A stretch of 35,034 bases of DNA from an uncultured Magnetospirillum sp. (lineage in GTDB: Bacteria > Pseudomonadota > Alphaproteobacteria > Rhodospirillales > Magnetospirillaceae): assembly GCF_903853455.1 (NCBI RefSeq), contig NZ_CAINTR010000077.1:1-35034 (forward strand). Reading direction: 5' to 3'. The notes below the pieces were generated by a model, which had not been told where the DNA came from, did no database searches, and was given only the letters and a program-made list of their open reading frames with translations. A program made the translations under genes and the position numbers. Of the stretch, positions 5,660-23,890 are shown one piece after another. The first letter of the stretch is position 1, and each line of letters opens with the position of its first letter.

Positions 5660-6898
5660 CTAAAGCCTCTCGCCCCGGAGCAGCCGCGGCAGGTCGCCCA
5701 CCAGCCCCATGGCGTGGCGCATGAAGAAGCGCTTGGCGCTGGGGAGGCGGTTGACGGCGGCCAGACCCAGCCGGCGGGCCAGTCGCAACGGCGGCACGTC
5801 GTTGGAGAACAGGCGGTCGAGGCCGTCGGTCAGCCCCAGCATCAGCATGGTGTCGAAGCGGCGCCAGCGCTGATAGCGCTCCAGCACCTGCGGCGCGCCG
5901 GGATCCAGACCCAGGCGGCGGGCGTCGACGATGACCTCGGCCAGGGCGGCGACGTCGCGGATGCCCATGTTCATGCCTTGGCCGGCGATGGGATGCATGC
6001 CGTGGGCGGCGTCGCCCACCAGCGCCAGACGCGGCGCGATCATGGTTTCGGCGAAATGCAGCGACAGCGGATGGTGGAAGCGCGGCCCCTCCAGCCCGAT
6101 CTCCCCCAGGAAGCCGCCGACCCGTTGCCCCAGCTCCTCCAGGAAGGCCGCGTCGTCCTGCTCGCAGATGACGGCGGCGCGGTCGCGGCGTTCGGTCCAG
6201 ACGATGCCGCTGCGATGGCCGGCCAGCGGCAGGATGGCGAAGGGTCCCGCCGGCAGGAAGCGCTCATGGGCGATGCCGTGGTGGGGCAGGGCATGGGTCA
6301 TGGTGCAGACGATGCCGCTTTCGCCATAGGCGCGGCGGGTGACGGCGATGCCGGCCGCCTCGCGGGTGGCCGACGCCCTGCCATCGGCGGCGACCACCAG
6401 CGCGGCGGTGATCCGGCGCCCGTCCTCCAGCTCGACCTCGACCCGGCCGGCCTGACGGTCCAGCCGCTTGACCCGGGCCGGCGCCAACAGGCGGGCGCCG
6501 GGGCTGGCGGTCAGCCGGTCCAGGATTCCCCGGCGGATGGCCGGGTTGGGAACGATCCAGCCCAGGGGATGGTCGCCCACCTCCAGATGGTCGTAATGCA
6601 GGAACAGCGGCGAGGCGGAATCGGTGACCCGAATCTCCCGGATGGCGCCGGCCTCCGGTGCCATGGCATCCCAGGCTCCGGCGGCGGCGATCACCTTTTG
6701 CGAGGTATAGGACACGGCGATGGCACGGGCATCCGATCCGGCCTGGCCCATGGCCGCCGGCGAAGCGGCCTCCACCACCGCCACCGCGATGCCGGCACCG
6801 GCCAGCACCGAGGCGAGCAGGCCGCCCACCGGCCCACCGCCGATGACGACCACATCGACGCGGATCGTCTGTTGCCCCTCAAGCGCCGGGCGGGTCAC
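5660..6898 (-). CDS. ubiH: UbiH/UbiF/UbiL-family FAD monooxygenase (ubiquinone synthesis)
   Basis: A flavoprotein hydroxylase of about 412 residues that adds a hydroxyl group to the quinone ring during ubiquinone synthesis. The FAD Rossmann motif VVVIGGGPVGGLLASVLAGA starts near residue 17, the DG motif is VVAADGRASATREAAG, and the second FAD motif is LALVGDAAHGMHPIAGQG, followed by NMGIRDVAALAEV. Which ring position is hydroxylated cannot be decided from sequence. The frame runs back to an ATG at 6997, but that extension is repeat DNA. I chose the GTG at 6898, which has AGGGG 8 bases upstream. A GTG at 6853 would start directly at the Rossmann strand. Both the chosen start and its ribosome binding site lie inside intergenic repeat R1. 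Confidence 0.88.
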   Translation of the reverse strand: MTRPALEGQQTIRVDVVVIGGGPVGGLLASVLAGAGIAVAVVEAASPAAMGQAGSDARAIAVSYTSQKVIAAAGAWDAMAPEAGAIREIRVTDSASPLFLHYDHLEVGDHPLGWIVPNPAIRRGILDRLTASPGARLLAPARVKRLDRQAGRVEVELEDGRRITAALVVAADGRASATREAAGIAVTRRAYGESGIVCTMTHALPHHGIAHERFLPAGPFAILPLAGHRSGIVWTERRDRAAVICEQDDAAFLEELGQRVGGFLGEIGLEGPRFHHPLSLHFAETMIAPRLALVGDAAHGMHPIAGQGMNMGIRDVAALAEVIVDARRLGLDPGAPQVLERYQRWRRFDTMLMLGLTDGLDRLFSNDVPPLRLARRLGLAAVNRLPSAKRFFMRHAMGLVGDLPRLLRGERL

Positions 6899-7027
6899 AT
6901 CCGTGACCCCTGTGGGCTTCGCCCACCCCTCGCATTTACTCGGGGCCGCCCTGCGGGCGTCGTTTGCCCCCGCGGGGCGGCACGGCTTTCGCGCCATGAG
7001 GCGCGCCGGCCCTTGGCCGCAACTCCG
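6875..7027 (+). repeat. Modular intergenic repeat, copy R1
   Basis: Read on the plus strand: the CCTCAAGCGCCGGGCG start, a copy-specific hairpin GGTCAC-atcc-GTGACC, a 71-base block (6912-6982) with three hairpins (GTGGGC-ttc-GCCCAC, GCCGCCC-tgc-GGGCG, GCCCC/GGGGC), the hairpin GGCTTTCGCGCCatgaGGCGCG, and the end GGCCGCAACTCC. The 71-base block differs from that of copy R2 at only three positions. A small palindrome around 7028-7045 (CGAACGAA-TTCGTTCG) follows, then the lolA stop. Confidence 0.85.
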
Positions 7028-7072
7028 AACGAATAAATTCGTTCGTCGAGATAATATGGCGGGAAGATTTGC

Positions 7073-7732
7073 TCAGCCATTGTTGAAATTGAGCTTGGGC
7101 TTGAGGAATTTGGGGTCCTGGAACTGGAACAGCTTGGGATCCAAGGTCAATCCGTTCTGGGCCTCGAACAGCGAGACGGTGGTCACCTGATTCTGGGTGT
7201 CCTTGACCTGCCATTGCCGCAGGGTGAAGGGAGCGTCGGAGAACACCAGGGTGATCTCGCCCGCCGCCGGGTCGTCGGCCTGCACCATGGAAATGCGGAC
7301 CACGCCGGGCAGCCGGGTGACGCGGGAGACCGCCACGTCGCCGTCGTTCAGCTTGACGTTGGCGCGGACCAGGATTCCGGCGGGGGTGGAATCCAGCGGC
7401 AGATAGCTGGGCTCGCCCAATTGCCGGTCATGGACGATCAGGAAGGTTCCGTCGGCCACCACCAGCAGCGGGCTGGGCGGGTCATACTGCATGCGCAGTT
7501 TGCCGGGGCGCGACAGATAGGCGTCGCCCTCGACGCTGGTGCCGTTGGGCGAGATCTGGAGGAAGCGGGCCTTCAGGGTGGTGATGCCGTTGAGATAGGT
7601 TTCCGCCCGCTCGATGTCGCCCTTGTCCCGCTCGGTCAGCGGCAGCTTGCGGGGCTCGGCGGCCCCGGCGGCCGCCCAGGTGGTGAAGGCCAGCAGCAAC
7701 GCCAGCGCCAATCTGCCCATTTTGTTCGTCAT
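7073..7732 (-). CDS. lolA: LolA-like outer-membrane lipoprotein carrier
   Basis: A 219-residue secreted protein. Residues 1-24 are a signal peptide with a positive start, a hydrophobic core and an AGA/AAG-type cleavage region. The mature part has the LolA fold signature: AETYLNGITTLKARFLQ, an EGDAYLSRPGKLRMQYDPP strand region, LLVVADGTFLIVHD, then FTLRQWQVKDTQNQVTTVSL and FQFQDPKFLKP. LolA carries lipoproteins from the LolCDE exporter across the periplasm to the outer membrane. It starts 9 bases after the ftsK stop on the same strand, the usual alphaproteobacterial order, so it is very likely in the ftsK operon. The repeat R1 separates it from ubiH. Confidence 0.92.
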   Translation of the reverse strand: MTNKMGRLALALLLAFTTWAAAGAAEPRKLPLTERDKGDIERAETYLNGITTLKARFLQISPNGTSVEGDAYLSRPGKLRMQYDPPSPLLVVADGTFLIVHDRQLGEPSYLPLDSTPAGILVRANVKLNDGDVAVSRVTRLPGVVRISMVQADDPAAGEITLVFSDAPFTLRQWQVKDTQNQVTTVSLFEAQNGLTLDPKLFQFQDPKFLKPKLNFNNG

Positions 7733-22698: not shown

Positions 22699-23750
22699 GC
22701 CTTCACCCCGGCGAAACCGACCTTCTTGGCATGGGGATCGAGCGGCCAGCGCGGCCGGGGGGCGAAGTCCAGCTGATCCACCAGCCCCAGGCGCAGCCGT
22801 TCCACCCCGGCCCAGGCGATCATGGCGGCGTTGTCGGTGCACAGCTTCAGCGGCGGCGCCAGGAACTCAAGGCCCGTTTCGGATCCGATCCGAATCAAGG
22901 TGTCGCGCAGGGCGGTGTTGGCGGCGACGCCGCCGGCCACCACCAGATGGCGCCCAATCGGCCAGCGGGCCTTGAAGTCCTTGATTCCCCGCCTGACCCG
23001 GTCGGCCACCGCGTCGGCGACGGCGGCCTGGAAGCCGGCGCAGACATCGGCGGCGTCCTGTTCGCTCAGCGGCCGGGGCAGGCTTTCCACCAGCAGCCGT
23101 ACCGCGTTCTTGAGGCCGGAGAAGCTGAAGTCGCAGCCGGGCTTGCCCTTCATGGGACGCGGCAGGACGAAACGGCGGGCATCGCCGGTGGCGGCGGCCT
23201 TTTCTACCGCCGGCCCGCCGGGATAGCCCAGTCCGGTCATCTTGGCCACCTTGTCGAAGGCCTCGCCGGCGGCGTCGTCGATGGTGGTGCCCAGCCTTGT
23301 GTATTTGCCCACTCCCTCCACCGCCAGCAGTTGGCAATGGCCGCCCGAGGCCAGCAGCAGCAGATAGGGAAAGTCGATGCCATGGGTCAGCCGCGCCGTC
23401 AGGGCATGGCCTTCCAGATGGTTGACCGCCAGGAACGGCTTGCCCGCCGCCAGGGCCAGCGCCTTGGCGGTCATGACTCCGACGATGACGCCGCCGATCA
23501 GGCCCGGCCCGCCGGTGGCGGCGACGGCGTCCAACTCGCCAAAGCCGATACCGGCGCGTTTCATGGCCTCGGCCACCAGCCGGTCGATGTGCTGGAGATG
23601 GGAGCGCGCCGCGATTTCCGGCACGATGCCGCCATAGGGGCGGTGCTCGTCCAGCTGCGACAGCACCACATCGGCCAGAATCTCGCGCGTCCCCGTCACC
23701 ACGGCGGCGGCGGTCTCATCGCAACTGGTCTCGATGCCGAGAACTAACAT
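22695..23750 (-). CDS. tsaD: tRNA N6-adenosine threonylcarbamoyltransferase TsaD
   Basis: A 351-residue ASKHA-fold enzyme that, with TsaB and TsaE, makes t6A37 in ANN-decoding tRNAs. It has [17 protein letters not shown] at the start, [27 protein letters not shown], the metal-binding histidines in [24 protein letters not shown] and [12 protein letters not shown], and C-terminal [12 protein letters not shown]. All key residues are present and the length is normal. The start ATG is preceded by GAGGGA at the correct spacing, and that purine run is the end of repeat R7. tsaB and tsaE are not in this window. Confidence 0.96.
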
Positions 23751-23756
23751 ATTCGT

Positions 23757-23890
23757 CCCTCAATCGCCGGGCGCCGCCTCACGGCGGCTTGGCTTTCGCG
23801 CCCCGCACGCGCATGCGTGCAGGCATATTGTTTGCCGGCGAAGCCGGCGAGGCGCGCGCCCTCAACGGGCTAGTCGCTTCGCTCCGGTAC
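23757..23890 (+). repeat. Modular intergenic repeat, copy R7
   Basis: CCCTCAATCGCCGGGC, the copy-specific hairpin GCCGCC-tcac-GGCGGC, TTGGCTTTCGCGCCCC, a GCACGCGCATGCGTGC palindrome, GCCGGCGAAGCCGGC (also in R4), and the second type of end: GCCC-tcaac-GGGC then TAGTCGCTTCGCTCCGGT. It fills the divergent space between tsaD and hemC. Confidence 0.87.

Follow-up and report, generated by a model that had tools for sequence, protein, structure and literature searches.

The window analyzed here is a 35,034-nucleotide stretch of DNA (contig NZ_CAINTR010000077.1, positions 1 to 35,034, forward strand; assembly GCF_903853455.1) from an uncultured Magnetospirillum sp. Eight of its spacers carry copies of a repeat built from consecutive hairpins (Table 1), which an initial annotation, made from the letters alone, had taken for a single modular family. 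We built a covariance model, R1, from 14 sequences, all of them from the genome to which the window belongs (hereafter the source genome) and including copies 2 and 4 (at 11.5 and 15.4 kb of the window), which therefore match the model by construction. The family is real: R1 matches seven of the eight spacers with E values of 0.0011 or lower; the remaining one holds a fragment. All of the stems listed in the initial annotation are present in the window, and so is the motif that it described as shared, but that motif varies as CCTCARNCGCCGGGC and is not constant.

Searches with R1 returned many further copies in the source genome and its relatives, as the annotation had anticipated. The source genome holds at least 150 copies: all 150 candidates that were scored matched R1, the worst with an E value of 7.7e-8. 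At E ≤ 0.01 a first set of contigs, 794,143 bp in all, contained 98 matches and a second set of 394,456 bp contained 54, which gives 152 in 1,188,599 bp. The 41 matches in the first 420,603 bp extrapolate to about 505 copies per genome, a rough figure that may be high, since contigs were picked from the top of the motif listing, and the later ones by their matches. The pattern CGCCGGGCG occurs 752 times in the source genome as against 304 times for its reversed form (2.5-fold). Enrichment of k-mers was discarded as a signal of the family, being drowned out by codon usage.

Paired stems and exchangeable modules

In the orientation of the initial annotation, the cassette follows the scheme CCTCARNCGCCGGGC - hp1 - TTGGCT - hp2 - hp3 - hp4, in which hp1 to hp4 are hairpins and linkers and loops are conserved. 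Written out, the order is a flank, often T-rich, then TGYCCCTCARNCGCCGGGC, hp1, TTGGCTTTC, hp2, hp3, CAACTCC or CTTGCC, hp4, and GTCGG. The arm of hp2 is mostly CGCGCC, CGCGGC, or CGCCGC with its complement, and the right arms of 109 copies from the source genome were of the types CAACTCC (48), CCTTGCC (21), CGCTnCGCTCC (13), GGGCCTA (2), and other (25).

The stems covary. Among the 98 R1 matches, 89.8% of the cells were paired (65.1% after shuffling) and 13 of the 14 pairs showed double changes, values that none of 500 shuffles reached; the count of further pair types was equalled by 46 of the 500. When the structure was slid along the alignment, pairing dropped to 37-55%. An exact parse of hp1 retained 279 of 287 core matches as palindromic, the other eight being dropped for more than two non-Watson-Crick cells, and these 279 comprised 147 distinct hp1 sequences, with 1752 Watson-Crick, 5 G-T, 19 A-C, and 39 other cells. 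Imperfect versions of hp1, with an outer run of four pairs or fewer, were seen in 10 of 109 copies from the source genome. The triplets that flank hp1 pair as well (235 GCC/GGC, 13 GGC/GCC, and 11 others; n = 259). For hp3, the 48 instances kept (at least four of five pairs) contained 239 Watson-Crick cells and no wobble cells, and for hp4, 41 of 67 pattern matches were palindromic (298 Watson-Crick, no G-T, 4 A-C, and 3 other cells); of the 26 left uncounted, 12 represent a TCGCC variant and the remainder were mis-parsed or chance matches. Thus, the claim that stems change while pairing is kept holds for the family at large, in R1 pairing as in the many sequences of hp1.

So does the claim that modules are lost or swapped between copies. 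A hairpin-rich module of 77 nucleotides (95% identical at 6910-6986 and 14188-14264) is nested in copies 1 and 3; in copy 1 it splits hp1 from hp2, and a similar sequence follows the core at L076:2472. Some copies, such as L007 and L141, have lost hp1 and hp2. The modules are mostly near linkage equilibrium (hp1 and hp2, p = 0.08; hp1 and right arm, p = 0.12; hp2 and right arm, p = 0.5), linkage being found only between hp1 and its two adjoining letters (p below 0.002). Tandem arrays of two or three near-identical elements, spaced by ~82-110 bp, were noted at L071, L075, L080, and L089 and in genome G016 at L248:18215-18480. The last of these is followed by a partial left end, and a partial left end is all that genome G010 retains there. 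Partial left ends were located after a right end in 8 of 35 instances.

Table 1. Repeat copies and other features of the window, with the state of each copy's site in related genomes
Feature	Position (strand)	R1 match	Parts	Site in relatives
Copy 1	6877-7048 (+)	6870-6917, E 2.8e-7, and 6962-7010, E 1.4e-6, split by the insert	Left core 6877-6891; hp1 6892-6909 GGGTCAC/GTGACCC; inserted module 6910 to ~6983; GGCTTT linker; hp2 6990-7005; hp3 ~7007-7019; CAACTCC 7020-7026; hp4 7027-7044; GTCG	Missing from the orthologous junction in G011, G007, G014, G003
Copy 2	11449-11572 (-)	11506-11575 (-), E 9e-19	Left core 11554-11568; hp1 11535-11553 GGGCCAC/GTGGCCC; hp2; hp3; CAACTCC; short hp4; trailing partial left end ~11449-11463	Other hp1 stems in G009, G005, G014; core missing in G003, G013
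Copy 3	14188-14415 (+)	14260-14317 (+), E 3e-12	77-nt module common with copy 1 (14188-14264); core 14262-14269; hp1 14270-14288 GGGATGCG/CGCATCCC; hp2; nested hairpin module; CAACTCC; hp4; trailing partial left end from 14398	Element in six relatives, with three different hp1 stems; empty in G002
Copy 4	15271-15405 (-)	15345-15411 (-), E 3.5e-15	Left core 15390-15404; hp1 15374-15389 GCCCAC/GTGGGC; hp2; nested hairpin module; CAACTCC; hp4	Empty in G011 and G002 (spacer there ~10-14 nt)
Copy 5	16166-16252 (+)	16159-16225 (+), E 9e-7	Core variant CGCCGGCG; hp1 CGGGC/GCCCG; CGCTnCGCTCC-type right arm	Empty in G011
Copy 6	16744-16793 (-)	16724-16798 (-), E 0.0011	Partial: left core fused to CGCTTCGCTCCGG right arm; hp1 and hp2 gone	Different sequence in G011, G002, G007
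Copy 7	22103-22139 (+)	None at E ≤ 0.01 (22105-22139)	Left-end fragment CTCTCAATCGCCGGACG...CGTCC; 5-bp stem around a 10-nt loop	
Copy 8	23757-23890 (+)	23751-23816 (+), E 1.3e-10	Left core 23758-23772; hp1 23773-23788 GCCGCC/GGCGGC; hp2 region with nested module; CGCTTCGCTCCGG right arm	
Inverted repeat	20539-20582 / 22011-22054		44 nt, 80%; brackets an open reading frame with DUF4424; copy 7 lies just outside	
tRNA-Gly(GCC) gene	1659-1733 (-)			

Mobility, ends, and probable IS630-type partners

The repeats are mobile, as is evident from filled and empty sites and from duplications of the target. Genomes G016 and G010 are 94.4% identical, as measured over one gene region. Of 11 element sites compared between them, one was shared, eight were empty in the other genome, one held unrelated sequence, and one could not be assigned. 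Seven further sites of G016 were compared with up to five relatives: two were filled only in G016, the five relatives being empty; one was filled only in G016, four relatives being empty there and G010 having a different insert; and four were shared with one or two relatives, four relatives being unreadable at one of these. At the site shared by G016 and G010 the right arm is kept in six species, and hp1 is GGGTTTC/GAAACCC in four of them, GCCTCGCC/GGCGAGGC in one, and GCGGCCT/AGGCCGC in one. At another orthologous site an identical GCCGCC stem is found in three species. Stems at orthologous sites can thus be replaced or kept, and re-insertion at the same site is possible. A one-sided intermediate stem was seen at one orthologous site (G010 at L250:6130). 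A target duplication of 8 bp, hinted at one site of the G016/G010 set (L098) and not at the others, was rejected. In G010, the position of the G016 element at L248:1850-2020 is occupied by an unlike palindromic insert, TGTCATTCCGAGCG...GGATGACAG, which resembles a pair of CGTC-type repetitive extragenic palindromes (REPs; compare PMC3733652).

Full-length copies end in imperfect inverted repeats of the form NACC...GGTN, and many are flanked by a duplicated 3-bp target, TNA. The terminal pattern TNATACCNNNTCNCGNTGA, with at most one mismatch, occurs at 54 sites in the source genome and at one for a reversed control. Thirty fetched loci yielded 16 elements with both ends, of which two measured 1164-1165 bp and 14 measured 141-184 bp; all of the latter carry the cassette core, and six have an identical pair of TNA triplets. 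Copies in the source genome with a left hairpin, hp0, are preceded by TNA in 10 of 10 cases, and the same TNA lies at the right in 6 of the 9 that have both ends (scored by eye). In a scripted set of 16 copies, chosen for a left TNA and having a right one, the two agree in 11; these three sets from the source genome overlap. Among 11 copies in the metagenome-assembled genome B17T1B10, identical TNA flanks were seen by eye in 6 of 9 with both ends.

The two longer elements, of 1164 and 1165 bp, are insertion sequences (ISs) of the source genome, bounded by the ends of the full-length copies and flanked on both sides by TAA. Pieces of their reading frames match HTH_33/HTH_29 and DDE_3 (DDE_3 above its cut-off) and the NCBIfam IS630 model, with E values of 9.8e-23 and 1e-24. 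The scores, 81 and 87.5 bits, do not reach the 100 bits required of a whole protein, a shortfall that a split of the frame at an A-run probably accounts for. G016 carries a second IS630-type element, with the ends TACCGACGAGC/TACCGGCGAGC; it is flanked by TGA on both sides, and its pieces score 97.9 and 123.9 bits with the IS630 model. End TACCGACGAGC of this element is the complement of GCTCGTCGGTA, the right end of the short forms of the repeat; in 22 of 63 short forms GTCGG is followed by TNA at offset 2, against a background of 2.7%. The source genome's only match to Y2_Tnp (IS91-type) lies ~2.4 kb from one IS630-type copy (G000:C152:14959-15510 and 17871-19040); an IS91-type Y2 transposase, of which the source genome has one copy, was set aside as a candidate mobilizer.

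The repeats are thus short, dispersed, and present in many copies (141-184 bp in the 14 copies with terminal repeats; hundreds of R1 cassettes), full-length copies have terminal inverted repeats and a target duplication, and their ends are common to an insertion sequence of IS630 type. Judging from their length and structure, they likely have no coding capacity. In our view these are probably non-coding miniature inverted-repeat transposable elements (MITEs) that carry a cassette of covarying hairpins and are moved by IS630-type transposases. The shared ends suggest that such transposases moved the copies seen here. The short forms, including the window copies, which keep the cassette and in some cases the right end but in every case lack the left inverted repeat, would then share a lineage with full-length copies. 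On this model a full-length element would start with NACC, end with GGTN, and duplicate a 3-bp TNA upon insertion. Because TNA covers TAA and TGA on either strand, elements would tend to land on gene ends, where the duplication would leave the stop codon intact. Stems change as complementary pairs and would also be exchanged between copies. The annotation had held that matched changes on both arms point away from simple duplication. The covariation itself is confirmed, but duplication does contribute, as the mobile elements, the target duplications, and the IS630-type partner attest.

Several observations weigh against this assignment. An identical TNA pair is missing from eight of the 14 copies of MITE size. 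IS630 elements duplicate TA, whereas the target at the partner ISs, as at the repeats, is the 3-bp TNA (TAA for the copies in the source genome, TGA in G016). Short forms, without a left inverted repeat, are commoner than full-length ones, and the sharing of TNA on both their sides is only modest (11 of 63 versus 5.7 expected; p = 0.0125). Homologues of the protein of the first IS were found, at E ≤ 1e-15, in 11 of 60 genomes, and at that threshold there were none in the element-rich genomes G001, G011, and G014. Matching ends were seen at the two copies in the source genome, loosely in G028, and, of the second type, in G016; none were found at the other eight homologue loci. Finally, transposases of the IS630 class act on double-stranded DNA, so that mobility by such an enzyme alone leaves the internal hairpins unexplained.

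The initial annotation had suggested looking for a REP-associated tyrosine transposase (RAYT) or another mobilizer. With a RAYT, the repeats would be REPs, or the bacterial interspersed mosaic elements (BIMEs) that REPs form, mobilized by an enzyme that reads the hairpin as single-stranded DNA. The repeats do present a hairpin on one defined strand and lie between genes and at gene ends, as REPs do in the sections of PMC3733652 that describe them. But a search for Y1_Tnp gave no match in the source genome and was positive in 5 of 14 control genomes, and inverted repeats with target duplications indicate a DDE transposase; we therefore regard a RAYT as a very improbable mobilizer, barring loss of the enzyme or a Y1 protein too divergent for the Pfam model.

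Gene gaps and the folded strand

The placement of copies between genes, also asserted in the initial annotation, was confirmed by a census of gene gaps, for which genes were called by a simple codon-usage script, so that single starts may be wrong. The 98 R1 matches, less four dropped at contig ends, lie in gaps with flanking genes -- (42), +- (28), ++ (12), and -+ (12). The corresponding counts for parsed copies are 45, 29, 20, and 6 in the source genome (n = 100), 21, 10, 12, and 3 in relatives (n = 46), and 21, 29, 26, and 5 in other taxa (n = 81), after removal of 3, 1, and 12 copies, respectively, more than 600 nucleotides from a called gene. In the source genome copies are scarce in divergent gaps (6 of 100 versus 130 of 465 gaps, p = 5e-7; 12 of 94 in the R1 set) and overrepresented in convergent ones (29 of 100 versus 73 of 465, p = 0.003), and both tendencies recur in other taxa. 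The exact site of 8 of 25 copies with terminal inverted repeats is the stop codon of a coding-like open reading frame. That TNA includes stop codons on either strand helps explain this position at gene ends. Insertion linked to the replichore was rejected: strand against position gave p = 0.46 in G016, 0.21 in G010, and 0.025 in G008, in tests on the listed matches (71 of 88, 33 of 47, and 42 of 66, respectively).

Which strand folds can be read from two asymmetries. First, among 137 unique hp1 sequences there are 15 A-C cells and 2 G-T cells (p = 0.002), and A-C here equals G-T on the complement. The ratio of G-T to A-C varies with the parse, whose filters differ: 0 to 9 in the first, 7 to 14 in the second (hp1 and hp2), and 2 to 15 for unique hp1. 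Second, of 239 loops of five nucleotides or fewer, 208 are GNA (81), GNAB (113), or GNNA (14) on the complement strand, and none are on the given strand. Thus, the strand that folds is the complement of the annotation's orientation, with loops GGA or GGAN. The loops cGNAg, cGNABg, and cGNNAg are stable in DNA, and the idea that they mark DNA over RNA comes from this general background. Predicted folds of two copies scored better than shuffles, clearly for one (z of -5 to -6) and weakly for the other (z of -1.6 to -2.8). This held under DNA as well as RNA parameters and for either strand, and the predictions therefore do not discriminate between strands.

Hairpins at gene ends could instead be kept as RNA acting in cis, in 3' untranslated regions or between cistrons, where they would block exonucleases, end transcription, or offer a Shine-Dalgarno-like sequence. 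The distribution over gaps is consistent with such a role, as is an orientation bias in the source genome, where copies whose right end points toward a minus-strand gene's stop codon outnumber those in the opposite arrangement (-- versus ++, p = 0.003 for parsed copies, with the 42 to 12 split among R1 matches). So are the better tolerance of G-U than of A-C on the minus strand and the presence, judged by eye, of TTGAGGG directly before the start codon in some copies. The bias, however, is not significant in relatives (p = 0.16) and is absent in other taxa (p = 0.56); wobble-type cells make up just 24 of the 1815 in hp1; and the position at gene ends is already explained in part by TNA targeting. 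Moreover, ++ copies keep perfect stems (46 of 58 versus 76 of 87 for -- copies, p = 0.25) and the loop class (41 of 58 versus 71 of 87, p = 0.16) about as well as -- copies do, and hence the fold signature belongs to the element itself rather than to local transcription. We judge a cis-acting RNA unlikely, if still a serious contender.

Somewhat more doubtful is the proposal that covariation is a by-product of mutation, in which template switching during replication copies one arm onto the other with little selection. One-sided changes are indeed very rare, whole stems differ at an orthologous site between G016 and G010, 94.4% identical over one gene region, and the near equilibrium among modules fits as well. 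Template switching, however, should invert the loops too, and their GNA-class letters stand on the minus strand only. The outer GCC/GGC helix next to hp1 covaries as well, a one-sided intermediate exists, and linkers are conserved from Rhodospirillales to Sphingomonadales, though the scan pattern itself fixed these letters.

Because GGA opens 183 of the 239 minus-strand loops, the repeats might also be a sponge for an RNA regulator that binds GGA, for example CsrA. PF02599 (CsrA), found in 3 of 14 control genomes, has no match in the 60 genomes searched, which rules out CsrA itself as the reader of the loops, although a different protein might read GGA; we rate a sponge of this kind the least credible explanation of all.

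For the cassette, service to the element is in our view the most likely role, ahead of cis-acting RNA and then of mutational correction of palindromes. What keeps the stems paired would be a need for the complement strand to fold, and that need most likely lies in the spread or persistence of the element itself. More tentatively, the interior may be a chain of hairpins free of sequence demands in their stems, selected as a folded single strand that is read by its loops and linkers only and that serves the element, with this selection acting on hundreds of copies and in several orders of Alphaproteobacteria. The strand might help the element to be copied, protected, or recognized, and might do so in the form of single-stranded DNA or of an RNA acting in trans. 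To our knowledge no such layer of sequence-free hairpins exists in other MITEs of the DDE type.

Distribution and relation to known repeats

At E ≤ 0.001 and with stricter filters, R1 matched in 43 of 60 genomes, the source genome included: 17 of 17 in the genus, 15 of 19 from the rest of the family, and 11 of 24 from the rest of the order, with up to 85 per genome among the matches listed. A pattern scan of named genomes found at least 97 stretches with the core, in Paramagnetospirillum, Magnetospirillum, Roseomonas and its kin, Niveispirillum, Erythrobacter, Porphyrobacter, Sphingopyxis, and others, which we take to belong to Rhodospirillales, Acetobacteraceae, and Sphingomonadales. One query against plasmids gave two weak matches, in Niveispirillum, and one against phages gave no match.

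The annotation knew of no named family with this layout, and nor do the sources that we searched. Searches against Rfam yielded no family for the repeats, either in the window (gathering score) or at six other element loci (E ≤ 1), the sole match at those six (M23, E 0.45) lying outside that locus's element. Keyword searching of a set of open-access papers turned up none describing the repeats, and the portions available of RepRanger (PMC12306157) and of a review of MITEs (PMC10969869) hold nothing on them.

The nearest described system is RUP of Streptococcus pneumoniae, a 107-bp non-coding intergenic element of ~108 copies with IS630-Spn1 as its proposed mobilizer and, like the repeats, with inverted repeats resembling those of an IS630-type IS (PMC2229807, in part). 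As portrayed in that portion, RUP targets TA rather than TNA, is listed for one species whereas our family spans several alphaproteobacterial genera, and has no covarying multi-hairpin interior. The repeats share with the GTAG and CGTC families of REPs and BIMEs a palindromic form, a location between and downstream of genes, and complementary changes in stems (PMC3733652, in part). But REPs are described there as single palindromes of 20-40 bp with a GTAG or CGTC tag, the GTAG families often with G-T pairs, whereas our repeats have four or five consecutive hairpins, conserved linkers, and almost no G-T pairs, and full-length copies have inverted repeats and a target duplication. Identity with the CGTC REP, given in the same text as a CGTC tag, a stem of 8-9 bp that starts with A-T pairs, and a CCA tail, was rejected by eye, as most hp4 stems have G-C as their first pair and GTCG after them. 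By description only, NEMIS/Correia and the Caulobacter CIR are also similar, being small repeats with transcripts that would fold into long stem-loops (PMC2229807, in part).

A further parallel, from general knowledge, is the attC site of integrons, which is recognized by fold rather than by sequence and has variable stems, as the repeats do. The known kind to which we assign the family is the IS630-partnered MITE; the TNA target and the strand-specific cassette of hairpins are unusual, and we could match the cassette to no described family.

With perhaps some 500 copies in one genome by extrapolation, and a core that spans Rhodospirillales, Acetobacteraceae, and Sphingomonadales, the family raises the question of why a MITE should preserve near-perfect pairing in its interior when the letters of its stems vary freely. 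It also suggests a simple account of the crowding of such elements at gene ends: the TNA target contains stop codons, and its duplication preserves them.

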